The position numbers and the translations under genes are program-made. The notes beneath the pieces were generated by a model. The model was not told where the DNA came from, did not search any database, and worked only from the letters and a program-made list of their open reading frames with translations. 64,000 bases of DNA from Odontesthes bonariensis (Eukaryota; Chordata; Actinopteri; Atheriniformes; Atherinopsidae), in the NCBI RefSeq assembly GCF_027942865.1, contig NC_134507.1, forward strand, positions 33,905,711-33,969,710, written 5' to 3'. Shown here piece by piece: positions 19,026 to 42,754 of this stretch. Position 1 is the stretch's first letter, and every line of letters begins with the position of its first letter.

Positions 19026-19144
19026 GCTTACGGCCACACCGCCCTGAACACGCCCGATCTCGTCCGAACTCGGAAGCCAAGCAGGGTAGGGCCTGGTTAG
19101 TACTTGGATGGGAGACCGCTTGGGAATACCAGGTGCTGTAAGCA
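19026..19144 (+). rRNA. 5S rRNA, unit 12
   Basis: As unit 1; A63. Confidence 0.95.
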
Positions 19145-19758
19145 TTTTTCTCTCTTCTCTTCTCTTCTCTCTGCATGTCTTTTGTTGAAACATCTGTTGA
19201 TCACCCTGTGATCCATCTTGCTGATCCTGGATCTGCTAAGGTGTCCCAGGTCATGGTTGCCTTTGATCCTCATACATTTAACTTTGTCCTGACAAAGGAG
19301 CAGTTCCAAAAAGTCAAACAGGGACTGCCTTTGCATTTGACGCAGTCAAACTGCATGCGCCTGGAGAAGCCAAAAGGCTTACAGCACCTGGTATTCCCAG
19401 GCGGTCTCCCCATCCAAGTACTAACCAGGCCCGACTCTGCTTAGCTTCTGAGATAAAACTCTGGCTTTTAGTCTGCGAAAAGAGAGTGAAAGTGAACTCC
19501 ACTTTGAGATGGCTCTGGGATTGGGCCGACTGGGAGAATTGCTTGAAAAAAAGCTCTACACCCAATGAGCGGTCAGAACAAAGCCTCAAGACCCCTAGTC
19601 TTTTGCACAGAGTAAAAGACAAAGCAGCCATTGAATAGGGCCCGATTGTTCCTACCTGGTCGGCCGAGGAGCCAGCGTCTCAACCAAGCAAAGCTCACCG
19701 TGGGGAAGGTGGCTATGCCAACTAGCCTGATGCACTGCTCCCGCAGTGTCAAATACTC

Positions 19759-19877
19759 GTACTCTGGTTTCTCTTCATAACGTACAAGTCTTTCGCCTTT
19801 TACTAAAGACTTCCGTGGAGAGCAGCATTAATGAGTTGTTTCTATTTTTGGAAGGCTTTACCTTTGCGGGTGAAGCC
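19759..19877 (+). ncRNA. U5 snRNA, unit 12
   Basis: As unit 1. Confidence 0.92.
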
Positions 19878-20175
19878 CATTCTGTCTGTGCAAAGGAAAT
19901 CTTCTTGCTGTGCCAAGTGACTTCTCGGAGTAGAGTCACCTTATTTCTTGAGACCGTGCCCATGTTCAAAGCTGGAGCGCTAAATTGTTGTTGTTTGAAT
20001 GGTGCTCAGTGGAGCGGGCGGGAGTGCAAAGTTGTACCATCTGAAACGGCTGAAGAGTGCTCACTGCAGCGGGTGGGCGGAGGTGCAAAGTGACGCTTTG
20101 TAGGCAAAAAAAGAGCACCGCCACAAGTGCGCATTGTGCCAGGAAGGGCTGTCGGACGTGAAACAGTGGAGGGTT

Positions 20176-20364
20176 ATCGCTTCTCGGCCTTTTGGCTAAG
20201 ATCAAGTGTAGTATCTGTTCTTATCAGTTTAATATCTGATACGTCCTCTATATGAGGACTACATATTAAATGGATTTTTAGGCACAGGGGTTGAAAAAGG
20301 GGCTTGCTCCGTTCACTCCACGCATCGACCCGGTACTGCAGTGCCGCTGGGAACGGTGCACTCT
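20176..20364 (+). ncRNA. U2 snRNA, unit 12
   Basis: GTAGTA intact; -25 type G. Confidence 0.94.
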
Positions 20365-20730
20365 TCCCAACTCTTGTGAAATAACAAAACCTGCGGTACA
20401 TGGTGGTAGTTTCAGGGAGCCATTGTATTCTGACTTCTAAAATGGAACTATAATCTTTAGAAAAGACGCAGTTTATGAGCACGTCGTGGGATTGAGCTTC
20501 CCTGGTTTCTCTGTATGACCATGAACACCAAACTACACACAGAGAACAGAGGAGCTTGACAGACACACACTAAGTTATCTGAGAGTCCCATTTGCAGCTG
20601 CAGAGAACAATCACATCAGGGAAGTCGACGTGCAGGCTCAACATCAGCCTCTCAAGCCAACTCTCTGGTAAAATAGGGGCAACGTATGGTTCCAGCACCT
20701 ATGTAACACATATTTGTCACGGGGACTGTG

Positions 20731-20849
20731 GCTTACGGCCACACCGCCCTGAACACGCCCGATCTCGTCCGAACTCGGAAGCCAAGCAGGGTAGGGCCTG
20801 GTTAGTACTTGGATGGGAGACCGCTTGGGAATACCAGGTGCTGTAAGCA
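20731..20849 (+). rRNA. 5S rRNA, unit 13
   Basis: As unit 1; A63. Confidence 0.95.
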
Positions 20850-21463
20850 TTTTTCTCTCTTCTCTTCTCTTCTCTCTGCATGTCTTTTGTTGAAACATCT
20901 GTTGATCACCCTGTGATCCATCTTGCTGATCCTGGATCTGCTAAGGTGTCCCAGGTCATGGTTGCCTTTGATCCTCATACATTTAACTTTGTCCTGACAA
21001 AGGAGCAGTTCCAAAAAGTCAAACAGGGACTGCCTTTGCATTTGACGCAGTCAAACTGCATGCGCCTGGAGAAGCCAAAAGGCTTACAGCACCTGGTATT
21101 CCCAGGCGGTCTCCCCATCCAAGTACTAACCAGGCCCGACTCTGCTTAGCTTCTGAGATAAAACTCTGGCTTTTAGTCTGCGAAAAGAGAGTGAAAGTGA
21201 ACTCCACTTTGAGATGGCTCTGGGATTGGGCCGACTGGGAGAATTGCTTGAAAAAAAGCTCTACACCCAATGAGCGGTCAGAACAAAGCCTCAAGACCCC
21301 TAGTCTTTTGCACAGAGTAAAAGACAAAGCAGCCATTGAATAGGGCCCGATTGTTCCTACCTGGTCGGCCGAGGAGCCAGCGTCTCAACCAAGCAAAGCT
21401 CACCGTGGGGAAGGTGGCTATGCCAACTAGCCTGATGCACTGCTCCCGCAGTGTCAAATACTC

Positions 21464-21582
21464 GTACTCTGGTTTCTCTTCATAACGTACAAGTCTTTCG
21501 CCTTTTACTAAAGACTTCCGTGGAGAGCAGCATTAATGAGTTGTTTCTATTTTTGGAAGGCTTTACCTTTGCGGGTGAAGCC
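21464..21582 (+). ncRNA. U5 snRNA, unit 13
   Basis: As unit 1. Confidence 0.92.
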
Positions 21583-21880
21583 CATTCTGTCTGTGCAAAG
21601 GAAATCTTCTTGCTGTGCCAAGTGACTTCTCGGAGTAGAGTCACCTTATTTCTTGAGACCGTGCCCATGTTCAAAGCTGGAGCGCTAAATTGTTGTTGTT
21701 TGAATGGTGCTCAGTGGAGCGGGCGGGAGTGCAAAGTTGTACCATCTGAAACGGCTGAAGAGTGCTCACTGCAGCGGGTGGGCGGAGGTGCAAAGTGACG
21801 CTTTGTAGGCAAAAAAAGAGCACCGCCACAAGTGCGCATTGTGCCAGGAAGGGCTGTCGGACGTGAAACAGTGGAGGGTT

Positions 21881-22069
21881 ATCGCTTCTCGGCCTTTTGG
21901 CTAAGATCAAGTGTAGTATCTGTTCTTATCAGTTTAATATCTGATACGTCCTCTATATGAGGACTACATATTAAATGGATTTTTAGGCACAGGGGTTGAA
22001 AAAGGGGCTTGCTCCGTTCACTCCACGCATCGACCCGGTACTGCAGTGCCGCTGGGAACGGTGCACTCT
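21881..22069 (+). ncRNA. U2 snRNA, unit 13
   Basis: GTAGTA intact; -25 type G. Confidence 0.94.
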
Positions 22070-22435
22070 TCCCAACTCTTGTGAAATAACAAAACCTGCG
22101 GTACATGGTGGTAGTTTCAGGGAGCCATTGTATTCTGACTTCTAAAATGGAACTATAATCTTTAGAAAAGACGCAGTTTATGAGCACGTCGTGGGATTGA
22201 GCTTCCCTGGTTTCTCTGTATGACCATGAACACCAAACTACACACAGAGAACAGAGGAGCTTGACAGACACACACTAAGTTATCTGAGAGTCCCATTTGC
22301 AGCTGCAGAGAACAATCACATCAGGGAAGTCGACGTGCAGGCTCAACATCAGCCTCTCAAGCCAACTCTCTGGTAAAATAGGGGCAACGTATGGTTCCAG
22401 CACCTATGTAACACATATTTGTCACGGGGACTGTG

Positions 22436-22554
22436 GCTTACGGCCACACCGCCCTGAACACGCCCGATCTCGTCCGAACTCGGAAGCCAAGCAGGGTAGG
22501 GCCTGGTTAGTACTTGGATGGGAGACCGCTTGGGAATACCAGGTGCTGTAAGCA
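22436..22554 (+). rRNA. 5S rRNA, unit 14
   Basis: As unit 1; A63. Confidence 0.95.
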
Positions 22555-23168
22555 TTTTTCTCTCTTCTCTTCTCTTCTCTCTGCATGTCTTTTGTTGAAA
22601 CATCTGTTGATCACCCTGTGATCCATCTTGCTGATCCTGGATCTGCTAAGGTGTCCCAGGTCATGGTTGCCTTTGATCCTCATACATTTAACTTTGTCCT
22701 GACAAAGGAGCAGTTCCAAAAAGTCAAACAGGGACTGCCTTTGCATTTGACGCAGTCAAACTGCATGCGCCTGGAGAAGCCAAAAGGCTTACAGCACCTG
22801 GTATTCCCAGGCGGTCTCCCCATCCAAGTACTAACCAGGCCCGACTCTGCTTAGCTTCTGAGATAAAACTCTGGCTTTTAGTCTGCGAAAAGAGAGTGAA
22901 AGTGAACTCCACTTTGAGATGGCTCTGGGATTGGGCCGACTGGGAGAATTGCTTGAAAAAAAGCTCTACACCCAATGAGCGGTCAGAACAAAGCCTCAAG
23001 ACCCCTAGTCTTTTGCACAGAGTAAAAGACAAAGCAGCCATTGAATAGGGCCCGATTGTTCCTACCTGGTCGGCCGAGGAGCCAGCGTCTCAACCAAGCA
23101 AAGCTCACCGTGGGGAAGGTGGCTATGCCAACTAGCCTGATGCACTGCTCCCGCAGTGTCAAATACTC

Positions 23169-23287
23169 GTACTCTGGTTTCTCTTCATAACGTACAAGTC
23201 TTTCGCCTTTTACTAAAGACTTCCGTGGAGAGCAGCATTAATGAGTTGTTTCTATTTTTGGAAGGCTTTACCTTTGCGGGTGAAGCC
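23169..23287 (+). ncRNA. U5 snRNA, unit 14
   Basis: As unit 1. Confidence 0.92.
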
Positions 23288-23585
23288 CATTCTGTCTGTG
23301 CAAAGGAAATCTTCTTGCTGTGCCAAGTGACTTCTCGGAGTAGAGTCACCTTATTTCTTGAGACCGTGCCCATGTTCAAAGCTGGAGCGCTAAATTGTTG
23401 TTGTTTGAATGGTGCTCAGTGGAGCGGGCGGGAGTGCAAAGTTGTACCATCTGAAACGGCTGAAGAGTGCTCACTGCAGCGGGTGGGCGGAGGTGCAAAG
23501 TGACGCTTTGTAGGCAAAAAAAGAGCACCGCCACAAGTGCGCATTGTGCCAGGAAGGGCTGTCGGACGTGAAACAGTGGAGGGTT

Positions 23586-23774
23586 ATCGCTTCTCGGCCT
23601 TTTGGCTAAGATCAAGTGTAGTATCTGTTCTTATCAGTTTAATATCTGATACGTCCTCTATATGAGGACTACATATTAAATGGATTTTTAGGCACAGGGG
23701 TTGAAAAAGGGGCTTGCTCCGTTCACTCCACGCATCGACCCGGTACTGCAGTGCCGCTGGGAACGGTGCACTCT
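23586..23774 (+). ncRNA. U2 snRNA, unit 14
   Basis: GTAGTA intact; -25 type G. Confidence 0.94.
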
Positions 23775-24140
23775 TCCCAACTCTTGTGAAATAACAAAAC
23801 CTGCGGTACATGGTGGTAGTTTCAGGGAGCCATTGTATTCTGACTTCTAAAATGGAACTATAATCTTTAGAAAAGACGCAGTTTATGAGCACGTCGTGGG
23901 ATTGAGCTTCCCTGGTTTCTCTGTATGACCATGAACACCAAACTACACACAGAGAACAGAGGAGCTTGACAGACACACACTAAGTTATCTGAGAGTCCCA
24001 TTTGCAGCTGCAGAGAACAATCACATCAGGGAAGTCGACGTGCAGGCTCAACATCAGCCTCTCAAGCCAACTCTCTGGTAAAATAGGGGCAACGTATGGT
24101 TCCAGCACCTATGTAACACATATTTGTCACGGGGACTGTG

Positions 24141-24259
24141 GCTTACGGCCACACCGCCCTGAACACGCCCGATCTCGTCCGAACTCGGAAGCCAAGCAGG
24201 GTAGGGCCTGGTTAGTACTTGGATGGGAGACCGCTTGGGAATACCAGGTGCTGTAAGCA
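24141..24259 (+). rRNA. 5S rRNA, unit 15
   Basis: As unit 1; A63. Confidence 0.95.
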
Positions 24260-24538
24260 TTTTTCTCTCTTCTCTTCTCTTCTCTCTGCATGTCTTTTGT
24301 TGAAACATCTGTTGATCACCCTGTGATCCATCTTGCTGATCCTGGATCTGCTAAGGTGTCCCAGGTCATGGTTGCCTTTGATCCTCATACATTTAACTTT
24401 GTCCTGACAAAGGAGCAGTTCCAAAAAGTCAAACAGGGACTGCCTTTGCATTTGACGCAGTCAAACTGCATGCGCCTGGAGAAGCCAAAAGGCTTACAGC
24501 ACCTGGTATTCCCAGGCGGTCTCCCCATCCAAGTACTA

Positions 24539-24569
<31 letters not shown>

Positions 24570-24873
24570 AAAACTCTGGCTTTTAGTCTGCGAAAAGAGA
24601 GTGAAAGTGAACTCCACTTTGAGATGGCTCTGGGATTGGGCCGACTGGGAGAATTGCTTGAAAAAAAGCTCTACACCCAATGAGCGGTCAGAACAAAGCC
24701 TCAAGACCCCTAGTCTTTTGCACAGAGTAAAAGACAAAGCAGCCATTGAATAGGGCCCGATTGTTCCTACCTGGTCGGCCGAGGAGCCAGCGTCTCAACC
24801 AAGCAAAGCTCACCGTGGGGAAGGTGGCTATGCCAACTAGCCTGATGCACTGCTCCCGCAGTGTCAAATACTC

Positions 24874-24992
24874 GTACTCTGGTTTCTCTTCATAACGTAC
24901 AAGTCTTTCGCCTTTTACTAAAGACTTCCGTGGAGAGCAGCATTAATGAGTTGTTTCTATTTTTGGAAGGCTTTACCTTTGCGGGTGAAGCC
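24874..24992 (+). ncRNA. U5 snRNA, unit 15
   Basis: As unit 1. Confidence 0.92.
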
Positions 24993-25290
24993 CATTCTGT
25001 CTGTGCAAAGGAAATCTTCTTGCTGTGCCAAGTGACTTCTCGGAGTAGAGTCACCTTATTTCTTGAGACCGTGCCCATGTTCAAAGCTGGAGCGCTAAAT
25101 TGTTGTTGTTTGAATGGTGCTCAGTGGAGCGGGCGGGAGTGCAAAGTTGTACCATCTGAAACGGCTGAAGAGTGCTCACTGCAGCGGGTGGGCGGAGGTG
25201 CAAAGTGACGCTTTGTAGGCAAAAAAAGAGCACCGCCACAAGTGCGCATTGTGCCAGGAAGGGCTGTCGGACGTGAAACAGTGGAGGGTT

Positions 25291-25479
25291 ATCGCTTCTC
25301 GGCCTTTTGGCTAAGATCAAGTGTAGTATCTGTTCTTATCAGTTTAATATCTGATACGTCCTCTATATGAGGACTACATATTAAATGGATTTTTAGGCAC
25401 AGGGGTTGAAAAAGGGGCTTGCTCCGTTCACTCCACGCATCAACCCGGTACTGCAGTGCCGCTGGGAACGGTGCACTCT
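25291..25479 (+). ncRNA. U2 snRNA, unit 15 (G152A)
   Basis: GTAGTA intact; -25 type G. It has a private G-to-A change at U2 nucleotide 152 (25442), just before stem-loop IV. Confidence 0.93.
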
Positions 25480-25845
25480 TCCCAACTCTTGTGAAATAAC
25501 AAAACCTGCGGTACATGGTGGTAGTTTCAGGGAGCCATTGTATTCTGACTTCTAAAATGGAACTATAATCTTTAGAAAAGACGCAGTTTATGAGCACGTC
25601 GTGGGATTGAGCTTCCCTGGTTTCTCTGTATGACCATGAACACCAAACTACACACAGAGAACAGAGGAGCTTGACAGACACACACTAAGTTATCTGAGAG
25701 TCCCATTTGCAGCTGCAGAGAACAATCACATCAGGGAAGTCGACGTGCAGGCTCAACATCAGCCTCTCAAGCCAACTCTCTGGTAAAATAGGGGCAACGT
25801 ATGGTTCCAGCACCTATGTAACACATATTTGTCACGGGGACTGTG

Positions 25846-25964
25846 GCTTACGGCCACACCGCCCTGAACACGCCCGATCTCGTCCGAACTCGGAAGCCAA
25901 GCAGGGTAGGGCCTGGTTAGTACTTGGATGGGAGACCGCTTGGGAATACCAGGTGCTGTAAGCA
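25846..25964 (+). rRNA. 5S rRNA, unit 16
   Basis: As unit 1; A63. Confidence 0.95.
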
Positions 25965-26578
25965 TTTTTCTCTCTTCTCTTCTCTTCTCTCTGCATGTCT
26001 TTTGTTGAAACATCTGTTGATCACCCTGTGATCCATCTTGCTGATCCTGGATCTGCTAAGGTGTCCCAGGTCATGGTTGCCTTTGATCCTCATACATTTA
26101 ACTTTGTCCTGACAAAGGAGCAGTTCCAAAAAGTCAAACAGGGACTGCCTTTGCATTTGACGCAGTCAAACTGCATGCGCCTGGAGAAGCCAAAAGGCTT
26201 ACAGCACCTGGTATTCCCAGGCGGTCTCCCCATCCAAGTACTAACCAGGCCCGACTCTGCTTAGCTTCTGAGATAAAACTCTGGCTTTTAGTCTGCGAAA
26301 AGAGAGTGAAAGTGAACTCCACTTTGAGATGGCTCTGGGATTGGGCCGACTGGGAGAATTGCTTGAAAAAAAGCTCTACACCCAATGAGCGGTCAGAACA
26401 AAGCCTCAAGACCCCTAGTCTTTTGCACAGAGTAAAAGACAAAGCAGCCATTGAATAGGGCCCGATTGTTCCTACCTGGTCGGCCGAGGAGCCAGCGTCT
26501 CAACCAAGCAAAGCTCACCGTGGGGAAGGTGGCTATGCCAACTAGCCTGATGCACTGCTCCCGCAGTGTCAAATACTC

Positions 26579-26697
26579 GTACTCTGGTTTCTCTTCATAA
26601 CGTACAAGTCTTTCGCCTTTTACTAAAGACTTCCGTGGAGAGCAGCATTAATGAGTTGTTTCTATTTTTGGAAGGCTTTACCTTTGCGGGTGAAGCC
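26579..26697 (+). ncRNA. U5 snRNA, unit 16
   Basis: As unit 1. Confidence 0.92.
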
Positions 26698-26995
26698 CAT
26701 TCTGTCTGTGCAAAGGAAATCTTCTTGCTGTGCCAAGTGACTTCTCGGAGTAGAGTCACCTTATTTCTTGAGACCGTGCCCATGTTCAAAGCTGGAGCGC
26801 TAAATTGTTGTTGTTTGAATGGTGCTCAGTGGAGCGGGCGGGAGTGCAAAGTTGTACCATCTGAAACGGCTGAAGAGTGCTCACTGCAGCGGGTGGGCGG
26901 AGGTGCAAAGTGACGCTTTGTAGGCAAAAAAAGAGCACCGCCACAAGTGCGCATTGTGCCAGGAAGGGCTCTCGGACGTGAAACAGTGGAGGGTT

Positions 26996-27184
26996 ATCGC
27001 TTCTCGGCCTTTTGGCTAAGATCAAGTGTACTATCTGTTCTTATCAGTTTAATATCTGATACGTCCTCTATATGAGGACTACATATTAAATGGATTTTTA
27101 GGCACAGGGGTTGAAAAAGGGGCTTGCTCCGTTCACTCCACGCATCGACCCGGTACTGCAGTGCCGCTGGGAACGGTGCACTCT
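26996..27184 (+). ncRNA. U2 snRNA variant, unit 16 (branch hexamer GTACTA)
   Basis: Otherwise like unit 1 (-25 type C), but nucleotide 36 (27031) is C instead of G, so the branch-recognition hexamer reads GTACTA. In established U2-branch-site pairing, G36 pairs with the C of UACUAAC. The RNA would pair poorly with normal branch sites; whether it is expressed is unknown. Confidence 0.93.
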
Positions 27185-27550
27185 TCCCAACTCTTGTGAA
27201 ATAACAAAACCTGCGGTACATGGTGGTAGTTTCAGGGAGCCATTGTATTCTGACTTCTAAAATGGAACTATAATCTTTAGAAAAGACGCAGTTTATGAGC
27301 ACGTCGTGGGATTGAGCTTCCCTGGTTTCTCTGTATGACCATGAACACCAAACTACACACAGAGAACAGAGGAGCTTGACAGACACACACTAAGTTATCT
27401 GAGAGTCCCATTTGCAGCTGCAGAGAACAATCACATCAGGGAAGTCGACGTGCAGGCTCAACATCAGCCTCTCAAGCCAACTCTCTGGTAAAATAGGGGC
27501 AACGTATGGTTCCAGCACCTATGTAACACATATTTGTCACGGGGACTGTG

Positions 27551-27669
27551 GCTTACGGCCACACCGCCCTGAACACGCCCGATCTCGTCCGAACTCGGAA
27601 GCCAAGCAGGGTAGGGCCTGGTTAGTACTTGGATGGGAGACCGCTTGGGAATACCAGGTGCTGTAAGCA
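27551..27669 (+). rRNA. 5S rRNA, unit 17
   Basis: As unit 1; A63. Confidence 0.95.
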
Positions 27670-28283
27670 TTTTTCTCTCTTCTCTTCTCTTCTCTCTGCA
27701 TGTCTTTTGTTGAAACATCTGTTGATCACCCTGTGATCCATCTTGCTGATCCTGGATCTGCTAAGGTGTCCCAGGTCATGGTTGCCTTTGATCCTCATAC
27801 ATTTAACTTTGTCCTGACAAAGGAGCAGTTCCAAAAAGTCAAACAGGGACTGCCTTTGCATTTGACGCAGTCAAACTGCATGCGCCTGGAGAAGCCAAAA
27901 GGCTTACAGCACCTGGTATTCCCAGGCGGTCTCCCCATCCAAGTACTAACCAGGCCCGACTCTGCTTAGCTTCTGAGATAAAACTCTGGCTTTTAGTCTG
28001 CGAAAAGAGAGTGAAAGTGAACTCCACTTTGAGATGGCTCTGGGATTGGGCCGACTGGGAGAATTGCTTGAAAAAAAGCTCTACACCCAATGAGCGGTCA
28101 GAACAAAGCCTCAAGACCCCTAGTCTTTTGCACAGAGTAAAAGACAAAGCAGCCATTGAATAGGGCCCGATTGTTCCTACCTGGTCGGCCGAGGAGCCAG
28201 CGTCTCAACCAAGCAAAGCTCACCGTGGGGAAGGTGGCTATGCCAACTAGCCTGATGCACTGCTCCCGCAGTGTCAAATACTC

Positions 28284-28402
28284 GTACTCTGGTTTCTCTT
28301 CATAACGTACAAGTCTTTCGCCTTTTACTAAAGACTTCCGTGGAGAGCAGCATTAATGAGTTGTTTCTATTTTTGGAAGGCTTTACCTTTGCGGGTGAAG
28401 CC
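28284..28402 (+). ncRNA. U5 snRNA, unit 17
   Basis: As unit 1. Confidence 0.92.
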
Positions 28403-28700
28403 CATTCTGTCTGTGCAAAGGAAATCTTCTTGCTGTGCCAAGTGACTTCTCGGAGTAGAGTCACCTTATTTCTTGAGACCGTGCCCATGTTCAAAGCTGG
28501 AGCGCTAAATTGTTGTTGTTTGAATGGTGCTCAGTGGAGCGGGCGGGAGTGCAAAGTTGTACCATCTGAAACGGCTGAAGAGTGCTCACTGCAGCGGGTG
28601 GGCGGAGGTGCAAAGTGACGCTTTGTAGGCAAAAAAAGAGCACCGCCACAAGTGCGCATTGTGCCAGGAAGGGCTGTCGGACGTGAAACAGTGGAGGGTT

Positions 28701-28889
28701 ATCGCTTCTCGGCCTTTTGGCTAAGATCAAGTGTAGTATCTGTTCTTATCAGTTTAATATCTGATACGTCCTCTATATGAGGACTACATATTAAATGGAT
28801 TTTTAGGCACAGGGGTTGAAAAAGGGGCTTGCTCCGTTCACTCCACGCATCGACCCGGTACTGCAGTGCCGCTGGGAACGGTGCACTCT
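28701..28889 (+). ncRNA. U2 snRNA, unit 17
   Basis: GTAGTA intact; -25 type G. Confidence 0.94.
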
Positions 28890-29255
28890 TCCCAACTCTT
28901 GTGAAATAACAAAACCTGCGGTACATGGTGGTAGTTTCAGGGAGCCATTGTATTCTGACTTCTAAAATGGAACTATAATCTTTAGAAAAGACGCAGTTTA
29001 TGAGCACGTCGTGGGATTGAGCTTCCCTGGTTTCTCTGTATGACCATGAACACCAAACTACACACAGAGAACAGAGGAGCTTGACAGACACACACTAAGT
29101 TATCTGAGAGTCCCATTTGCAGCTGCAGAGAACAATCACATCAGGGAAGTCGACGTGCAGGCTCAACATCAGCCTCTCAAGCCAACTCTCTGGTAAAATA
29201 GGGGCAACGTATGGTTCCAGCACCTATGTAACACATATTTGTCACGGGGACTGTG

Positions 29256-29374
29256 GCTTACGGCCACACCGCCCTGAACACGCCCGATCTCGTCCGAACT
29301 CGGAAGCCAAGCAGGGTAGGGCCTGGTTAGTACTTGGATGGGAGACCGCTTGGGAATACCAGGTGCTGTAAGCA
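29256..29374 (+). rRNA. 5S rRNA, unit 18
   Basis: As unit 1; A63. Confidence 0.95.
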
Positions 29375-29988
29375 TTTTTCTCTCTTCTCTTCTCTTCTCT
29401 CTGCATGTCTTTTGTTGAAACATCTGTTGATCACCCTGTGATCCATCTTGCTGATCCTGGATCTGCTAAGGTGTCCCAGGTCATGGTTGCCTTTGATCCT
29501 CATACATTTAACTTTGTCCTGACAAAGGAGCAGTTCCAAAAAGTCAAACAGGGACTGCCTTTGCATTTGACGCAGTCAAACTGCATGCGCCTGGAGAAGC
29601 CAAAAGGCTTACAGCACCTGGTATTCCCAGGCGGTCTCCCCATCCAAGTACTAACCAGGCCCGACTCTGCTTAGCTTCTGAGATAAAACTCTGGCTTTTA
29701 GTCTGCGAAAAGAGAGTGAAAGTGAACTCCACTTTGAGATGGCTCTGGGATTGGGCCGACTGGGAGAATTGCTTGAAAAAAAGCTCTACACCCAATGAGC
29801 GGTCAGAACAAAGCCTCAAGACCCCTAGTCTTTTGCACAGAGTAAAAGACAAAGCAGCCATTGAATAGGGCCCGATTGTTCCTACCTGGTCGGCCGAGGA
29901 GCCAGCGTCTCAACCAAGCAAAGCTCACCGTGGGGAAGGTGGCTATGCCAACTAGCCTGATGCACTGCTCCCGCAGTGTCAAATACTC

Positions 29989-30107
29989 GTACTCTGGTTT
30001 CTCTTCATAACGTACAAGTCTTTCGCCTTTTACTAAAGACTTCCGTGGAGAGCAGCATTAATGAGTTGTTTCTATTTTTGGAAGGCTTTACCTTTGCGGG
30101 TGAAGCC
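29989..30107 (+). ncRNA. U5 snRNA, unit 18
   Basis: As unit 1. Confidence 0.92.
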
Positions 30108-30405
30108 CATTCTGTCTGTGCAAAGGAAATCTTCTTGCTGTGCCAAGTGACTTCTCGGAGTAGAGTCACCTTATTTCTTGAGACCGTGCCCATGTTCAAA
30201 GCTGGAGCGCTAAATTGTTGTTGTTTGAATGGTGCTCAGTGGAGCGGGCGGGAGTGCAAAGTTGTACCATCTGAAACGGCTGAAGAGTGCTCACTGCAGC
30301 GGGTGGGCGGAGGTGCAAAGTGACGCTTTGTAGGCAAAAAAAGAGCACCGCCACAAGTGCGCATTGTGCCAGGAAGGGCTGTCGGACGTGAAACAGTGGA
30401 GGGTT

Positions 30406-30594
30406 ATCGCTTCTCGGCCTTTTGGCTAAGATCAAGTGTAGTATCTGTTCTTATCAGTTTAATATCTGATACGTCCTCTATATGAGGACTACATATTAAA
30501 TGGATTTTTAGGCACAGGGGTTGAAAAAGGGGCTTGCTCCGTTCACTCCACGCATCGACCCGGTACTGCAGTGCCGCTGGGAACGGTGCACTCT
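30406..30594 (+). ncRNA. U2 snRNA, unit 18
   Basis: GTAGTA intact; -25 type G. Confidence 0.94.
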
Positions 30595-30960
30595 TCCCAA
30601 CTCTTGTGAAATAACAAAACCTGCGGTACATGGTGGTAGTTTCAGGGAGCCATTGTATTCTGACTTCTAAAATGGAACTATAATCTTTAGAAAAGACGCA
30701 GTTTATGAGCACGTCGTGGGATTGAGCTTCCCTGGTTTCTCTGTATGACCATGAACACCAAACTACACACAGAGAACAGAGGAGCTTGACAGACACACAC
30801 TAAGTTATCTGAGAGTCCCATTTGCAGCTGCAGAGAACAATCACATCAGGGAAGTCGACGTGCAGGCTCAACATCAGCCTCTCAAGCCAACTCTCTGGTA
30901 AAATAGGGGCAACGTATGGTTCCAGCACCTATGTAACACATATTTGTCACGGGGACTGTG

Positions 30961-31079
30961 GCTTACGGCCACACCGCCCTGAACACGCCCGATCTCGTCC
31001 GAACTCGGAAGCCAAGCAGGGTAGGGCCTGGTTAGTACTTGGATGGGAGACCGCTTGGGAATACCAGGTGCTGTAAGCA
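30961..31079 (+). rRNA. 5S rRNA, unit 19
   Basis: As unit 1; A63. Confidence 0.95.
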
Positions 31080-31693
31080 TTTTTCTCTCTTCTCTTCTCT
31101 TCTCTCTGCATGTCTTTTGTTGAAACATCTGTTGATCACCCTGTGATCCATCTTGCTGATCCTGGATCTGCTAAGGTGTCCCAGGTCATGGTTGCCTTTG
31201 ATCCTCATACATTTAACTTTGTCCTGACAAAGGAGCAGTTCCAAAAAGTCAAACAGGGACTGCCTTTGCATTTGACGCAGTCAAACTGCATGCGCCTGGA
31301 GAAGCCAAAAGGCTTACAGCACCTGGTATTCCCAGGCGGTCTCCCCATCCAAGTACTAACCAGGCCCGACTCTGCTTAGCTTCTGAGATAAAACTCTGGC
31401 TTTTAGTCTGCGAAAAGAGAGTGAAAGTGAACTCCACTTTGAGATGGCTCTGGGATTGGGCCGACTGGGAGAATTGCTTGAAAAAAAGCTCTACACCCAA
31501 TGAGCGGTCAGAACAAAGCCTCAAGACCCCTAGTCTTTTGCACAGAGTAAAAGACAAAGCAGCCATTGAATAGGGCCCGATTGTTCCTACCTGGTCGGCC
31601 GAGGAGCCAGCGTCTCAACCAAGCAAAGCTCACCGTGGGGAAGGTGGCTATGCCAACTAGCCTGATGCACTGCTCCCGCAGTGTCAAATACTC

Positions 31694-31812
31694 GTACTCT
31701 GGTTTCTCTTCATAACGTACAAGTCTTTCGCCTTTTACTAAAGACTTCCGTGGAGAGCAGCATTAATGAGTTGTTTCTATTTTTGGAAGGCTTTACCTTT
31801 GCGGGTGAAGCC
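31694..31812 (+). ncRNA. U5 snRNA, unit 19
   Basis: As unit 1. Confidence 0.92.
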
Positions 31813-32110
31813 CATTCTGTCTGTGCAAAGGAAATCTTCTTGCTGTGCCAAGTGACTTCTCGGAGTAGAGTCACCTTATTTCTTGAGACCGTGCCCATGT
31901 TCAAAGCTGGAGCGCTAAATTGTTGTTGTTTGAATGGTGCTCAGTGGAGCGGGCGGGAGTGCAAAGTTGTACCATCTGAAACGGCTGAAGAGTGCTCACT
32001 GCAGCGGGTGGGCGGAGGTGCAAAGTGACGCTTTGTAGGCAAAAAAAGAGCACCGCCACAAGTGCGCATTGTGCCAGGAAGGGCTGTCGGACGTGAAACA
32101 GTGGAGGGTT

Positions 32111-32299
32111 ATCGCTTCTCGGCCTTTTGGCTAAGATCAAGTGTAGTATCTGTTCTTATCAGTTTAATATCTGATACGTCCTCTATATGAGGACTACATA
32201 TTAAATGGATTTTTAGGCACAGGGGTTGAAAAAGGGGCTTGCTCCGTTCACTCCACGCATCGACCCGGTACTGCAGTGCCGCTGGGAACGGTGCACTCT
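32111..32299 (+). ncRNA. U2 snRNA, unit 19
   Basis: GTAGTA intact; -25 type G. Confidence 0.94.
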
Positions 32300-32665
32300 T
32301 CCCAACTCTTGTGAAATAACAAAACCTGCGGTACATGGTGGTAGTTTCAGGGAGCCATTGTATTCTGACTTCTAAAATGGAACTATAATCTTTAGAAAAG
32401 ACGCAGTTTATGAGCACGTCGTGGGATTGAGCTTCCCTGGTTTCTCTGTATGACCATGAACACCAAACTACACACAGAGAACAGAGGAGCTTGACAGACA
32501 CACACTAAGTTATCTGAGAGTCCCATTTGCAGCTGCAGAGAACAATCACATCAGGGAAGTCGACGTGCAGGCTCAACATCAGCCTCTCAAGCCAACTCTC
32601 TGGTAAAATAGGGGCAACGTATGGTTCCAGCACCTATGTAACACATATTTGTCACGGGGACTGTG

Positions 32666-32784
32666 GCTTACGGCCACACCGCCCTGAACACGCCCGATCT
32701 CGTCCGAACTCGGAAGCCAAGCAGGGTAGGGCCTGGTTAGTACTTGGATGGGAGACCGCTTGGGAATACCAGGTGCTGTAAGCA
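32666..32784 (+). rRNA. 5S rRNA, unit 20
   Basis: As unit 1; A63. Confidence 0.95.
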
Positions 32785-33398
32785 TTTTTCTCTCTTCTCT
32801 TCTCTTCTCTCTGCATGTCTTTTGTTGAAACATCTGTTGATCACCCTGTGATCCATCTTGCTGATCCTGGATCTGCTAAGGTGTCCCAGGTCATGGTTGC
32901 CTTTGATCCTCATACATTTAACTTTGTCCTGACAAAGGAGCAGTTCCAAAAAGTCAAACAGGGACTGCCTTTGCATTTGACGCAGTCAAACTGCATGCGC
33001 CTGGAGAAGCCAAAAGGCTTACAGCACCTGGTATTCCCAGGCGGTCTCCCCATCCAAGTACTAACCAGGCCCGACTCTGCTTAGCTTCTGAGATAAAACT
33101 CTGGCTTTTAGTCTGCGAAAAGAGAGTGAAAGTGAACTCCACTTTGAGATGGCTCTGGGATTGGGCCGACTGGGAGAATTGCTTGAAAAAAAGCTCTACA
33201 CCCAATGAGCGGTCAGAACAAAGCCTCAAGACCCCTAGTCTTTTGCACAGAGTAAAAGACAAAGCAGCCATTGAATAGGGCCCGATTGTTCCTACCTGGT
33301 CGGCCGAGGAGCCAGCGTCTCAACCAAGCAAAGCTCACCGTGGGGAAGGTGGCTATGCCAACTAGCCTGATGCACTGCTCCCGCAGTGTCAAATACTC

Positions 33399-33517
33399 GT
33401 ACTCTGGTTTCTCTTCATAACGTACAAGTCTTTCGCCTTTTACTAAAGACTTCCGTGGAGAGCAGCATTAATGAGTTGTTTCTATTTTTGGAAGGCTTTA
33501 CCTTTGCGGGTGAAGCC
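33399..33517 (+). ncRNA. U5 snRNA, unit 20
   Basis: As unit 1. Confidence 0.92.
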
Positions 33518-33815
33518 CATTCTGTCTGTGCAAAGGAAATCTTCTTGCTGTGCCAAGTGACTTCTCGGAGTAGAGTCACCTTATTTCTTGAGACCGTGCC
33601 CATGTTCAAAGCTGGAGCGCTAAATTGTTGTTGTTTGAATGGTGCTCAGTGGAGCGGGCGGGAGTGCAAAGTTGTACCATCTGAAACGGCTGAAGAGTGC
33701 TCACTGCAGCGGGTGGGCGGAGGTGCAAAGTGACGCTTTGTAGGCAAAAAAAGAGCACCGCCACAAGTGCGCATTGTGCCAGGAAGGGCTCTCGGACGTG
33801 AAACAGTGGAGGGTT

Positions 33816-34004
33816 ATCGCTTCTCGGCCTTTTGGCTAAGATCAAGTGTACTATCTGTTCTTATCAGTTTAATATCTGATACGTCCTCTATATGAGGACT
33901 ACATATTAAATGGATTTTTAGGCACAGGGGTTGAAAAAGGGGCTTGCTCCGTTCACTCCACGCATCGACCCGGTACTGCAGTGCCGCTGGGAACGGTGCA
34001 CTCT
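33816..34004 (+). ncRNA. U2 snRNA variant, unit 20 (branch hexamer GTACTA)
   Basis: Same G36C change as unit 16 (33851), with -25 type C. Confidence 0.93.
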
Positions 34005-34370
34005 TCCCAACTCTTGTGAAATAACAAAACCTGCGGTACATGGTGGTAGTTTCAGGGAGCCATTGTATTCTGACTTCTAAAATGGAACTATAATCTTTAG
34101 AAAAGACGCAGTTTATGAGCACGTCGTGGGATTGAGCTTCCCTGGTTTCTCTGTATGACCATGAACACCAAACTACACACAGAGAACAGAGGAGCTTGAC
34201 AGACACACACTAAGTTATCTGAGAGTCCCATTTGCAGCTGCAGAGAACAATCACATCAGGGAAGTCGACGTGCAGGCTCAACATCAGCCTCTCAAGCCAA
34301 CTCTCTGGTAAAATAGGGGCAACGTATGGTTCCAGCACCTATGTAACACATATTTGTCACGGGGACTGTG

Positions 34371-34489
34371 GCTTACGGCCACACCGCCCTGAACACGCCC
34401 GATCTCGTCCGAACTCGGAAGCCAAGCAGGGTAGGGCCTGGTTAGTACTTGGATGGGAGACCGCTTGGGAATACCAGGTGCTGTAAGCA
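34371..34489 (+). rRNA. 5S rRNA, unit 21
   Basis: As unit 1; A63. Confidence 0.95.
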
Positions 34490-35103
34490 TTTTTCTCTCT
34501 TCTCTTCTCTTCTCTCTGCATGTCTTTTGTTGAAACATCTGTTGATCACCCTGTGATCCATCTTGCTGATCCTGGATCTGCTAAGGTGTCCCAGGTCATG
34601 GTTGCCTTTGATCCTCATACATTTAACTTTGTCCTGACAAAGGAGCAGTTCCAAAAAGTCAAACAGGGACTGCCTTTGCATTTGACGCAGTCAAACTGCA
34701 TGCGCCTGGAGAAGCCAAAAGGCTTACAGCACCTGGTATTCCCAGGCGGTCTCCCCATCCAAGTACTAACCAGGCCCGACTCTGCTTAGCTTCTGAGATA
34801 AAACTCTGGCTTTTAGTCTGCGAAAAGAGAGTGAAAGTGAACTCCACTTTGAGATGGCTCTGGGATTGGGCCGACTGGGAGAATTGCTTGAAAAAAAGCT
34901 CTACACCCAATGAGCGGTCAGAACAAAGCCTCAAGACCCCTAGTCTTTTGCACAGAGTAAAAGACAAAGCAGCCATTGAATAGGGCCCGATTGTTCCTAC
35001 CTGGTCGGCCGAGGAGCCAGCGTCTCAACCAAGCAAAGCTCACCGTGGGGAAGGTGGCTATGCCAACTAGCCTGATGCACTGCTCCCGCAGTGTCAAATA
35101 CTC

Positions 35104-35222
35104 GTACTCTGGTTTCTCTTCATAACGTACAAGTCTTTCGCCTTTTACTAAAGACTTCCGTGGAGAGCAGCATTAATGAGTTGTTTCTATTTTTGGAAGG
35201 CTTTACCTTTGCGGGTGAAGCC
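35104..35222 (+). ncRNA. U5 snRNA, unit 21
   Basis: As unit 1. Confidence 0.92.
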
Positions 35223-35520
35223 CATTCTGTCTGTGCAAAGGAAATCTTCTTGCTGTGCCAAGTGACTTCTCGGAGTAGAGTCACCTTATTTCTTGAGACC
35301 GTGCCCATGTTCAAAGCTGGAGCGCTAAATTGTTGTTGTTTGAATGGTGCTCAGTGGAGCGGGCGGGAGTGCAAAGTTGTACCATCTGAAACGGCTGAAG
35401 AGTGCTCACTGCAGCGGGTGGGCGGAGGTGCAAAGTGACGCTTTGTAGGCAAAAAAAGAGCACCGCCACAAGTGCGCATTGTGCCAGGAAGGGCTGTCGG
35501 ACGTGAAACAGTGGAGGGTT

Positions 35521-35709
35521 ATCGCTTCTCGGCCTTTTGGCTAAGATCAAGTGTACTATCTGTTCTTATCAGTTTAATATCTGATACGTCCTCTATATGA
35601 GGACTACATATTAAATGGATTTTTAGGCACAGGGGTTGAAAAAGGGGCTTGCTCCGTTCACTCCACGCATCGACCCGGTACTGCAGTGCCGCTGGGAACG
35701 GTGCACTCT
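35521..35709 (+). ncRNA. U2 snRNA variant, unit 21 (branch hexamer GTACTA)
   Basis: Same G36C change (35556), but on a -25 type G background, unlike units 16 and 20. Confidence 0.93.
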
Positions 35710-36075
35710 TCCCAACTCTTGTGAAATAACAAAACCTGCGGTACATGGTGGTAGTTTCAGGGAGCCATTGTATTCTGACTTCTAAAATGGAACTATAATC
35801 TTTAGAAAAGACGCAGTTTATGAGCACGTCGTGGGATTGAGCTTCCCTGGTTTCTCTGTATGACCATGAACACCAAACTACACACAGAGAACAGAGGAGC
35901 TTGACAGACACACACTAAGTTATCTGAGAGTCCCATTTGCAGCTGCAGAGAACAATCACATCAGGGAAGTCGACGTGCAGGCTCAACATCAGCCTCTCAA
36001 GCCAACTCTCTGGTAAAATAGGGGCAACGTATGGTTCCAGCACCTATGTAACACATATTTGTCACGGGGACTGTG

Positions 36076-36194
36076 GCTTACGGCCACACCGCCCTGAACA
36101 CGCCCGATCTCGTCCGAACTCGGAAGCCAAGCAGGGTAGGGCCTGGTTAGTACTTGGATGGGAGACCGCTTGGGAATACCAGGTGCTGTAAGCA
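36076..36194 (+). rRNA. 5S rRNA, unit 22
   Basis: As unit 1; A63. Confidence 0.95.
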
Positions 36195-36808
36195 TTTTTC
36201 TCTCTTCTCTTCTCTTCTCTCTGCATGTCTTTTGTTGAAACATCTGTTGATCACCCTGTGATCCATCTTGCTGATCCTGGATCTGCTAAGGTGTCCCAGG
36301 TCATGGTTGCCTTTGATCCTCATACATTTAACTTTGTCCTGACAAAGGAGCAGTTCCAAAAAGTCAAACAGGGACTGCCTTTGCATTTGACGCAGTCAAA
36401 CTGCATGCGCCTGGAGAAGCCAAAAGGCTTACAGCACCTGGTATTCCCAGGCGGTCTCCCCATCCAAGTACTAACCAGGCCCGACTCTGCTTAGCTTCTG
36501 AGATAAAACTCTGGCTTTTAGTCTGCGAAAAGAGAGTGAAAGTGAACTCCACTTTGAGATGGCTCTGGGATTGGGCCGACTGGGAGAATTGCTTGAAAAA
36601 AAGCTCTACACCCAATGAGCGGTCAGAACAAAGCCTCAAGACCCCTAGTCTTTTGCACAGAGTAAAAGACAAAGCAGCCATTGAATAGGGCCCGATTGTT
36701 CCTACCTGGTCGGCCGAGGAGCCAGCGTCTCAACCAAGCAAAGCTCACCGTGGGGAAGGTGGCTATGCCAACTAGCCTGATGCACTGCTCCCGCAGTGTC
36801 AAATACTC

Positions 36809-36927
36809 GTACTCTGGTTTCTCTTCATAACGTACAAGTCTTTCGCCTTTTACTAAAGACTTCCGTGGAGAGCAGCATTAATGAGTTGTTTCTATTTTTG
36901 GAAGGCTTTACCTTTGCGGGTGAAGCC
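36809..36927 (+). ncRNA. U5 snRNA, unit 22
   Basis: As unit 1. Confidence 0.92.
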
Positions 36928-37225
36928 CATTCTGTCTGTGCAAAGGAAATCTTCTTGCTGTGCCAAGTGACTTCTCGGAGTAGAGTCACCTTATTTCTTG
37001 AGACCGTGCCCATGTTCAAAGCTGGAGCGCTAAATTGTTGTTGTTTGAATGGTGCTCAGTGGAGCGGGCGGGAGTGCAAAGTTGTACCATCTGAAACGGC
37101 TGAAGAGTGCTCACTGCAGCGGGTGGGCGGAGGTGCAAAGTGACGCTTTGTAGGCAAAAAAAGAGCACCGCCACAAGTGCGCATTGTGCCAGGAAGGGCT
37201 GTCGGACGTGAAACAGTGGAGGGTT

Positions 37226-37414
37226 ATCGCTTCTCGGCCTTTTGGCTAAGATCAAGTGTAGTATCTGTTCTTATCAGTTTAATATCTGATACGTCCTCTA
37301 TATGAGGACTACATATTAAATGGATTTTTAGGCACAGGGGTTGAAAAAGGGGCTTGCTCCGTTCACTCCACGCATCGACCCGGTACTGCAGTGCCGCTGG
37401 GAACGGTGCACTCT
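37226..37414 (+). ncRNA. U2 snRNA, unit 22
   Basis: GTAGTA intact; -25 type G. Confidence 0.94.
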
Positions 37415-37780
37415 TCCCAACTCTTGTGAAATAACAAAACCTGCGGTACATGGTGGTAGTTTCAGGGAGCCATTGTATTCTGACTTCTAAAATGGAACTA
37501 TAATCTTTAGAAAAGACGCAGTTTATGAGCACGTCGTGGGATTGAGCTTCCCTGGTTTCTCTGTATGACCATGAACACCAAACTACACACAGAGAACAGA
37601 GGAGCTTGACAGACACACACTAAGTTATCTGAGAGTCCCATTTGCAGCTGCAGAGAACAATCACATCAGGGAAGTCGACGTGCAGGCTCAACATCAGCCT
37701 CTCAAGCCAACTCTCTGGTAAAATAGGGGCAACGTATGGTTCCAGCACCTATGTAACACATATTTGTCACGGGGACTGTG

Positions 37781-37899
37781 GCTTACGGCCACACCGCCCT
37801 GAACACGCCCGATCTCGTCCGAACTCGGAAGCCAAGCAGGGTAGGGCCTGGTTAGTACTTGGATGGGAGACCGCTTGGGAATACCAGGTGCTGTAAGCA
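37781..37899 (+). rRNA. 5S rRNA, unit 23
   Basis: As unit 1; A63. Last 5S of the uniform part of the array. Confidence 0.95.
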
Positions 37900-38513
37900 T
37901 TTTTCTCTCTTCTCTTCTCTTCTCTCTGCATGTCTTTTGTTGAAACATCTGTTGATCACCCTGTGATCCATCTTGCTGATCCTGGATCTGCTAAGGTGTC
38001 CCAGGTCATGGTTGCCTTTGATCCTCATACATTTAACTTTGTCCTGACAAAGGAGCAGTTCCAAAAAGTCAAACAGGGACTGCCTTTGCATTTGACGCAG
38101 TCAAACTGCATGCGCCTGGAGAAGCCAAAAGGCTTACAGCACCTGGTATTCCCAGGCGGTCTCCCCATCCAAGTACTAACCAGGCCCGACTCTGCTTAGC
38201 TTCTGAGATAAAACTCTGGCTTTTAGTCTGCGAAAAGAGAGTGAAAGTGAACTCCACTTTGAGATGGCTCTGGGATTGGGCCGACTGGGAGAATTGCTTG
38301 AAAAAAAGCTCTACACCCAATGAGCGGTCAGAACAAAGCCTCAAGACCCCTAGTCTTTTGCACAGAGTAAAAGACAAAGCAGCCATTGAATAGGGCCCGA
38401 TTGTTCCTACCTGGTCGGCCGAGGAGCCAGCGTCTCAACCAAGCAAAGCTCACCGTGGGGAAGGTGGCTATGCCAACTAGCCTGATGCACTGCTCCCGCA
38501 GTGTCAAATACTC

Positions 38514-38632
38514 GTACTCTGGTTTCTCTTCATAACGTACAAGTCTTTCGCCTTTTACTAAAGACTTCCGTGGAGAGCAGCATTAATGAGTTGTTTCTAT
38601 TTTTGGAAGGCTTTACCTTTGCGGGTGAAGCC
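38514..38632 (+). ncRNA. U5 snRNA, unit 23
   Basis: As unit 1. Confidence 0.92.
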
Positions 38633-38930
38633 CATTCTGTCTGTGCAAAGGAAATCTTCTTGCTGTGCCAAGTGACTTCTCGGAGTAGAGTCACCTTATT
38701 TCTTGAGACCGTGCCCATGTTCAAAGCTGGAGCGCTAAATTGTTGTTGTTTGAATGGTGCTCAGTGGAGCGGGCGGGAGTGCAAAGTTGTACCATCTGAA
38801 ACGGCTGAAGAGTGCTCACTGCAGCGGGTGGGCGGAGGTGCAAAGTGACGCTTTGTAGGCAAAAAAAGAGCACCGCCACAAGTGCGCATTGTGCCAGGAA
38901 GGGCTCTCGGACGTGAAACAGTGGAGGGTT

Positions 38931-39119
38931 ATCGCTTCTCGGCCTTTTGGCTAAGATCAAGTGTAGTATCTGTTCTTATCAGTTTAATATCTGATACGTC
39001 CTCTATATGAGGACTACATATTAAATGGATTTTTAGGCACAGGGGTTGAAAAAGGGGTTTGCTCCGTTCACTCCACGCATCGACCCGGTACTGCAGTGCC
39101 GCCGGGAACGGTGCACTCT
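38931..39119 (+). ncRNA. U2 snRNA, unit 23 (edge type)
   Basis: GTAGTA intact; -25 type C. It differs from the array type at nucleotide 128 (C to T, 39058) and at 173 (T to C, 39103). The second turns a G-U pair into G-C in stem-loop IV. Edge-type spacer changes begin right after it. Confidence 0.93.
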
Positions 39120-39485
39120 TCCCAACTCTTGTGAAATAACAAAACCAGCGGTACATGGTGGTAGTTTCAGGGAGCCGTTGTATTCTGACTTCTAAAATGG
39201 AACTATAATCTTTAGAAAAGACGCAGTTTATGAGCACGTCGTGGGATTGAGCTTCCCTGGTTTCTCTGTATGACCATGAACACCAAACTACACACAGAGA
39301 ACAGAGGAGCTTGACAGACACACACTAAGTTATCTGAGAGTCCCATTTTCAGCTGCAGAGAACAATCACATCAGGGAAGTCGACGTGCAGGCTCAACATC
39401 AGCCTCTCAAGCCAACTCTCTGGTAAAATAGGGGCAACGTATGGTTCCAGCACCTATGTAACACATATTTGTCACGGGGACTGTG

Positions 39486-39604
39486 GCTTACGGCCACACC
39501 GCCCTGAACACGCCCGATCTCGTCCGAACTCGGAAGCCAAGCAGGGTCGGGCCTGGTTAGTACTTGGATGGGAGACCGCTTGGGAATACCAGGTGCTGTA
39601 AGCA
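39486..39604 (+). rRNA. 5S rRNA, unit 24 (C63, edge type)
   Basis: Carries the common vertebrate C at nucleotide 63 (39548), where units 1-23 have A. Confidence 0.95.
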
Positions 39605-40218
39605 TTTTTCTCTCTTGTCTTCTCTTCTCTCTGCATGTCTTTTGTTGAAACATCTGTTGATCACCCTGTGATCCATCTTGCTGATCCTGGATCTGCTAAG
39701 GTGTCCCAGGTCATGGTTGCCTTTGATCCTCATACATTTAACTTTGTCCTGACAAAGGAGCAGTTCCAAAAAGTCAAACAGGGACTGCCTTTGCATTTGA
39801 CGCAGTCAAACTGCATGCGCCTGGAGAAGCCAAAAGGCTTACAGCACCTGGTATTCCCAGGCGGTCTCCCCATCCAAGTACTAACCAGGCCCGACTCTGC
39901 TTAGCTTCTGAGATAAAACTCTGGCTTTTAGTCTGCGAAAAGAGAGTGAAAGTGAACTCCACTTTGAGATGGCTCTGGGATTGGGCCGACTGGGAGAATT
40001 GCTTGAAAAAAAGCTCTACACCCAATGAGCGGTCAGAACAAAGCCTCAAGACCCCTAGTCTTTTGCACAGAGTAAAAGACAAAGCAGCCATTGAATAGGG
40101 CCCGATTGTTCCTACCTGGTCGGCCGAGGAGCCAGCGTCTCAACCAAGCAAAGCTCACCGTGGGGAAGGTGGCTATGCCAACTAGCCTGATGCACTGCTC
40201 CCGCAGTGTCAAATACTC

Positions 40219-40337
40219 GTACTCTGGTTTCTCTTCATGACGTACAAGTCTTTCGCCTTTTACTAAAGACTTCCGTGGAGAGCAGCATTAATGAGTTGTT
40301 TCTGTTTTTGGAAGGCTTTACCTTTGCGGGTGAAGCC
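40219..40337 (+). ncRNA. U5 snRNA, unit 24 (Sm-site change)
   Basis: The Sm site reads GTTTTTGG instead of ATTTTTGG (40304), and TTCATAACG in the 5' stem is TTCATGACG. The first A of the Sm site is normally conserved, so this copy may not assemble an Sm core well and may be a pseudogene. Confidence 0.85.
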
Positions 40338-40636
40338 CATTCTGTCTGTGCAAAGGAAATCTTCTTGCTGTGCCAAGTGACTTCTCGGAGTAGAGTCACC
40401 TTATTTCTTGAGACCGTGCCCATGTTCAAAGCCTGGAGCGCTAAATTGTTGTTGTTTGAATGGTGCTCAGTGGAGCGGGCGGGAGTGCAAAGTTGTACCA
40501 TCTGAAACGGCTGAAGAGTGCTCACTGCAGCGGGTGGGCGGAGGTGCAAAGTGACGCTTTGTAGGCAAAAAAAGAGCACCGCCACAAGTGCGCATTGTGC
40601 CAGGAAGGGCTCTCGGACGTGAAACAGTGGAGGGTT

Positions 40637-40825
40637 ATCGCTTCTCGGCCTTTTGGCTAAGATCAAGTGTAGTATCTGTTCTTATCAGTTTAATATCTGA
40701 TACGTCCTCTATATGAGGACTACATATTAAATGGATTTTTAGGCACAGGGGTTGAAAAAGGGGCTTGCTCCGTTCACTCCACGCATCGACCCGGTACTGC
40801 AGTGCCGCCGGGAACGGTGCACTCT
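40637..40825 (+). ncRNA. U2 snRNA, unit 24 (edge type)
   Basis: GTAGTA intact; -25 type C; C173 as in unit 23. One extra C in the upstream region (about 40432) makes this unit 1706 bp. Confidence 0.93.
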
Positions 40826-41191
40826 TCCCAACTCTTGTGAAATAACAAAACCAGCGGTACATGGTGGTAGTTTCAGGGAGCCATTGTATTCTGACTTCTA
40901 AAATGGAACTATAATCTTTAGAAAAGACGCAGTTTATGAGCACGTCGTGGGATTGAGCTTCCCTGGTTTCTCTGTATGACCATGAACACCAAACTACACA
41001 CAGAGAACAGAGGAGCTTGACAGACACACACTAAGTTATCTGAGAGTCCCATTTGCAGCTGCAGAGAACAATCACATCAGGGAAGTCGACGTGCAGGCTC
41101 AACATCAGCCTCTCAAGCCAACTCTCTGGTAAAATAGGGGCAACGTATGGTTCCAGCACCTATGTAACACATATTTGTCACGGGGACTGTG

Positions 41192-42342: not shown

Positions 42343-42368
42343 ATCGCTTCTCGGCCTTTTGGCTAAGA
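42343..42368 (+). pseudogene. U2 snRNA of unit 25, 5' piece (nt 1-26) cut by a LINE
   Basis: U2 runs from its first base through CTAAGA (nucleotide 26) and then meets the LINE 5' end. The U2 promoter upstream is still present. Confidence 0.93.
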
Positions 42369-42704
42369 CTGCTATCGCCTCCTTTGGGTTGACTATTTTA
42401 TGCCTTTTCGGCATTAAATCTTTCTCGCTTTGGAGGTTCTTTTTTGCGTTCGATCAAAGTATTCCAAGTCGTTTGTAGTTGGAGTTCTTTGTCTTTAAAT
42501 TTTCTTGTATTACCCTTTTTTTTTCCAGGTTTTTGCTTTTTGAACGAGTTTCAGCTGAAACAGGGTCGGTGCCGGTGTTCCATTTTTTTAGAGTAAGGTA
42601 AGTATCCATTTTTAGTACCTTTTCATCCACTTTTTACTCTTTTATTGGGCTTTTAGTGTGATATTTATTTTTGTTCTTTTAAGCATTTTATTTAAAAACT
42701 GTTT

Positions 42705-42754
42705 GTGGTGCCTCCATCATGTCGGCAAACTATGCTGGCATGAGGAGGCACCAC
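42705..42754 (+). promoter_or_regulatory. Stem-loop around the LINE ORF1 start codon
   Basis: GTGGTGCCTCC (42705-42715) and GGAGGCACCAC (42744-42754) are perfect 11-bp complements, with the ORF1 ATG (42719) in the loop. It could affect translation start of the LINE mRNA; function is inferred. Confidence 0.5.

Follow-up and report, generated by a model that had tools for sequence, protein, structure and literature searches.

The 64,000-nucleotide window analyzed here, the whole stretch from position 33,905,711 to 33,969,710 of contig NC_134507.1 of the fish Odontesthes bonariensis (assembly GCF_027942865.1), carries a tandem array in which every unit holds one U2, one 5S, and one U5 gene, and three of its 24 whole U2 genes have C instead of G at nucleotide 36 (G36C), within the hexamer that recognizes the intron branch site. 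The 24 U2 starts lie on the forward strand at a spacing of 1,705 base pairs (bp), or 1,706 bp for the last, and each gene is a full-length match (model positions 1-192) to RF00004, the Rfam model of the major spliceosomal U2. Since the array extends past the window's left edge, 24 is the count for the window and the real total may be larger. Tandem Repeats Finder, whose longest period is 500, returned no rows for the window, the array unit being 1,705 bp. For comparison, all 24 units were aligned from -700 to +1005 relative to the U2 start, and near-identical units were taken in the places that the assembly gives them. Published work is cited by PMC number; in one such source, linkage of U2 to U5 is the usual arrangement in the fishes studied (PMC3464664). 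Coordinates are collected in Table 1.

Table 1. Features of the U2 array and of the associated retrotransposon in the window.
Feature	Coordinates	Strand	Details	Basis
U2-5S-U5 array	1421..40827	+	24 whole U2 genes; one 5S and one U5 per unit	Rfam scan, unit alignment
U2 gene, unit 16	26996..27186	+	G36C at 27031; C at -25	Hexamer listing, Rfam, unit alignment
U2 gene, unit 20	33816..34006	+	G36C at 33851; C at -25	Hexamer listing, Rfam, unit alignment
U2 gene, unit 21	35521..35711	+	G36C at 35556; G at -25	Hexamer listing, Rfam, unit alignment
25th U2 gene, left flank of insertion	42343..42368	+	U2 nucleotides 1-26	Sequence comparison
Keno-like non-LTR (long terminal repeat) retrotransposon	42369..47997	+	CCHC gag-like open reading frame, APE-type endonuclease, reverse transcriptase, A-rich 3' end	Open reading frames, domain matches
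25th U2 gene, right flank of insertion	47998..48150	+	U2 nucleotide 39 to end	Rfam, sequence comparison
Second, partial Keno-like copy	59342..62829	-	Two pieces	98.6% identity over 2,949 bp, 94.8% over 268 bp

Few RNA sequences of eukaryotes are as conserved as the GUAGUA of U2. At the corresponding nucleotides 33-38 of the gene, 21 of the 24 whole copies read GTAGTA, the branch-recognition hexamer of U2, and the remaining three read GTACTA. The three C36 copies all score 178.1 bits against RF00004 (cut-off 46), the lowest of the whole genes; the commonest score among the others is 182.7 bits and the next lowest is 178.9. None of the three is truncated, has lost its promoter, or shows the scattered decay of a pseudogene: apart from nucleotide 36, each is identical over 1,705 bp to the G36 units that share its base at -25, and upstream, over 700 bp, C36 and G36 genes match at every position except -25. 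An earlier note on this DNA had assigned the substitution to units 16, 20, and 21, had read GTAGTA in the other whole genes, and had described the variant genes and promoters as otherwise intact and of two promoter types; the hexamer listing and the unit alignment agree with it on every point. At the level of sequence, G36C appears to be a genuine variant of these genes.

Across the 1,705 aligned positions, the inner units (1-22) vary at just four, namely -25 (C/G), nucleotide 36 (G/C), and two sites at which a single unit differs (nucleotide 152, unit 15; +962, unit 14), with a mean pairwise difference of 0.84 per 1,705 bp, and G36C stands out because variation among them is so scarce. Were four sites placed at random, the probability of one or more landing in the 6-bp hexamer would be 0.014, a figure calculated post hoc. 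Within the U2 genes themselves, the positions that vary across all 24 copies are 36, 128, 152, and 173; for comparison, U2 polymorphism amounts to 6 sites among 13 sequences in Plectorhinchus (PMC3464664) and to 12 sites in Halobatrachus. The change in unit 15 is G152A (at 25442), at a base that the Rfam structure leaves unpaired between two helices toward the 3' end; in human RNU2-2, a homozygous patient is on record with a variant numbered alike, n.152G>A (PMC13083260), the numbers being matched without alignment of the two genes.

All four combinations of the bases at -25 and 36 are present among the 24 units: GG in 15, CG in six, CC in two, and GC in one. Linkage between the two sites was not significant in these units (Fisher P = 0.25), and C36 copies were not significantly clustered, the adjacency of units 20 and 21 having a chance probability of 0.24. 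The two units at the right edge of the array, 23 and 24 (38931-42100), carry C(-25) and G36, along with other states that have no counterpart in the inner 22, and C(-25) and G36 are probably ancestral because both edge units hold them. The distinctness of these two units is as expected where homogenization fades. If each change had a single origin, the four combinations point to exchange between sites 61 bp apart, by gene conversion or crossing-over in the array; the alternatives are that one of the changes arose twice or that reads were misplaced or the units misassembled. The proposal that the change has spread within the array gains support from the three copies together with the four combinations.

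Misplaced reads are one form of a more general explanation, in which C36 is an error of assembly or consensus, or is real at fewer or other places. Because the inner units are on average less than one base apart, reads are hard to place among them, and both variants shared among inner units are C/G differences. The C36 base nevertheless lies outside any homopolymer, the identical substitution occurs at three places, and mixing of reads would still require C36 to exist somewhere in the genome. We regard such an artifact as improbable, though as a serious rival to a real variant.

The array appears to fix changes in its RNA genes as readily as in the spacer. Eight sites bear on this, four that vary among units 1-22 and four at which units 1-22 differ from both unit 23 and unit 24; half of them fall in U2 or 5S, where the share of the unit taken up by RNA genes would predict about two (P = 0.11, in a small sample). 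The appearance of equal fixation follows from this count and from a homogenized change in 5S, where nucleotide 63 is A in 23 of the 26 genes (located at 271-41310 and 48515-48633) and C in the three rightmost (39486, 41192, and 48515). The 5S gene at 41192 has one more change besides. That no constraint on the RNA genes is visible at the eight sites would fit an array that is wholly or partly untranscribed in most tissues, for instance oocyte-only or heterochromatic, in which G36C would hardly be under selection. Zebrafish offers a partial parallel, with maternal-specific 5S and U1/U6 genes in Region-2 of chromosome 4 and the somatic 5S genes on chromosome 18 (PMC11075544), but the term 'U2 snRNA' (small nuclear RNA) has zero occurrences in that paper, and the upstream regions of the C36 and G36 genes differ at -25 only. 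We consider silence of these copies unlikely, although less so than an artifact, and likewise a serious rival.

The expected consequence of the substitution concerns the first contact between U2 and the intron. As the earlier note had stated, G36 pairs with the C of the branch consensus. This C lies three bases before the branch A (C-3:G36), and G36 is within the three-base toehold modeled as the first intron contact (PMC13167188). We calculated nearest-neighbor energies for free short RNAs, a treatment that ignores proteins and pseudouridines and in which the best duplexes omit the bulged end of the helix. On this basis UACUAAC with G36 and UAGUAAC with C36 are equally stable (-3.4 kcal/mol), whereas UACUAAC with C36 falls to -0.8 kcal/mol; across heptamers that have U at position 4 and A at position 6, the mean energies favor C at position 3 for G36 (-1.22) and G there for C36 (-1.38). 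The minimum-energy fold of the first 60 nucleotides was unchanged by C36, a weak test since this fold misses the branch stem-loop. Among predicted branch sites of cattle introns, just 70% show a pyrimidine at position 3, which varies as much as the intron sequence around it, and position 4, which A35 pairs, is strongly constrained, with T in 92% (PMC8531310). Of the suggestion that these RNAs should favor a different branch site or be inactive, the first half is thus upheld by the free-RNA energies, which move the preference to G(-3), and the second is not implied, position 3 being weakly constrained in cattle. For that reason C36 would give a mild or altered form of U2 that need not be dead: altered or reduced specificity is likelier than inactivity, and by analogy with cattle the RNA may work in part. 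Because UAGUA is nearly palindromic, the C36 loop is also an exact complement of the normal U2 loop, and the G36:C36 loop duplex was calculated, again as free RNA, at -5.6 kcal/mol, compared with -3.4 kcal/mol for the duplex with the branch site without the bulge.

We favor, with moderate confidence, the explanation that G36C is an ordinary, tolerated paralogous variant of the major U2 in a 5S-U5-U2 array, carried along by redundancy and homogenization. The sequence of C36, its copy number in the window, and its haplotypes are directly observed. The change would have arisen once, unequal crossing-over would have carried it into three or more units, and gene conversion would have swapped its promoter-side flank, as is suggested by the presence of four haplotypes for two sites only 61 bp from each other. 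With promoters and gene bodies like those of their neighbors, the C36 genes are presumably transcribed wherever the array is, and their RNA would assemble normally into a minor U2 species that pairs more weakly with C(-3) branch sites and better with G(-3) sites. It would be tolerated because most copies in the window are G36, and its persistence may be neutral. Two points weigh against this account. First, the two singleton changes are CpG-type transitions, both shared inner variants are C/G transversions, and the latter are an uncommon class of mutation, so that the shared variants may have another source, mutational or technical. Second, changes of A35 in human RNU2-2 act as dominant disease alleles (PMC12165836, PMC13083260, PMC13083258), and by analogy with this neighboring base C36 might carry a cost instead of being neutral.

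The human n.35A>G and n.35A>C alleles resemble the present variant in being a single change of GUAGUA in one U2 gene among others (PMC12165836), but they affect the adjacent nucleotide, and A35 pairs with a strongly conserved branch U whereas G36 faces a weakly conserved position. None of the three RNU2-2 papers named above has the string 'n.36' in its main text, and a limited literature search, covering titles and the openings of abstracts, found no natural U2 gene with a changed nucleotide 36. A pattern allowing any base at this nucleotide matched four stretches in three records of genome_contigs, all four with G36, which are probably eukaryotic contamination of bacterial bins, and it had no match in viral_contigs. 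Compared with the major spliceosomal U2 of RF00004, the window copies are full-length, above the cut-off, and neighbor-like in the rest of the gene and upstream; the difference is the C at nucleotide 36 of the hexamer. Several C36 copies in a vertebrate genome would amount to a natural test of how far an altered U2 is tolerated.

In laboratory U2 branch-site suppressors, changed recognition bases pair with altered branch sites; those changes were engineered, whereas C36 sits in a genomic array. Such work shows that altered pairing can be compensated, and C36 restores pairing to UAGUAAC, so that one may imagine a selected subpopulation of U2 that favors G at -3 and serves introns of its own. 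The variant genes nevertheless have neighbor-like promoters and are three copies within one array, with no separate locus. We judge this reading very improbable, the least probable of those considered.

Directly after unit 24, a 25th U2 gene has been destroyed by an insertion of 5,629 bases following nucleotide 26, with 12 bp (nucleotides 27-38) missing. The inserted element has its coding region split into several open reading frames and matches an APE endonuclease domain (PF03372, 8e-17) and a reverse transcriptase domain (PF00078, 1.2e-33). At its 3' junction U2 resumes at nucleotide 39 with TCTGTTCTTATCAGTTTAAT, the 3' U2 target quoted for Keno in PMC6136364, which places the Keno target 37 nucleotides downstream. 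With this junction and the APE and reverse transcriptase domains, the element appears to be Keno-like. Utopia, whose 3' U2 flank is identical to that of Keno from nucleotide 39, differs in encoding a restriction-like endonuclease (PMC4640811). The high identity of the second copy over its longer piece suggests recent activity; the region of that copy had no U2 match at the Rfam gathering score. A piece of the Keno reverse transcriptase gave three pattern matches in viral_contigs, none of which was confirmed as a relative.

The position of the 3' junction would put the first nick between nucleotides 38 and 39, or 37 and 38 if one A that is ambiguous with the A-rich tail is allowed for. Nucleotide 36 would thereby lie within the missing stretch and at most three bases from the nick, so that G36C falls inside the predicted Keno-like target, a point absent from the earlier note, and could affect targeting. 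G36 is also included in two of the three residual target motifs printed for Utopia, TGTAGTATCTG and TAGTATCTATT (PMC4640811). Conceivably, then, C36 copies are cut less by the Keno endonuclease, survive better, and are kept as a resistance allele: the hexamer base would be part of the target, the changed copies would go uncut, and the cost would be a second U2 species with altered branch preference, which, given the complementary loops, might even sequester normal U2 and be sequestered by it. Against this, G36 genes outnumber C36 genes 21 to 3, and the single U2 insertion in the window has lost its nucleotide 36, which leaves G36 and C36 targets without a comparison. A literature search whose coverage did not extend to the original description of Keno found no cleavage requirement for it, a limited search found no match for target-site resistance of this kind, and the available parts of PMC4640811 and PMC6136364 do not describe a U2 variant as an escape from targeting. 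We hold this explanation to be very improbable, and less probable than an assembly artifact. If C36 does protect from U2-specific retrotransposons, an essential RNA gene present in many copies would have acquired target-site resistance, a situation akin to that of alleles resistant to homing drives. The overlap of G36C with the Keno target is the part of the finding most worth following.

Several smaller features accompany the array. The U5 genes are identical in 25 of 26 cases, the differing one being at 40219-40333. An inverted, 5S-like fragment lies at 48856-48930 between 5S and U5, and stretches similar to it were seen by eye in array units. Open reading frames resembling a gypsy-type polyprotein and a Tc1-like protein were noted by eye at 55616-57517 and 63459-63842. 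On the reverse strand, nine U1 genes are spaced 712 bp apart (49607-55466) and have more variable positions within the gene than the U2 array does, with a change at nucleotide 11 in the copy at 49607 and at nucleotides 49, 74, 101, 140, and 142 in others.

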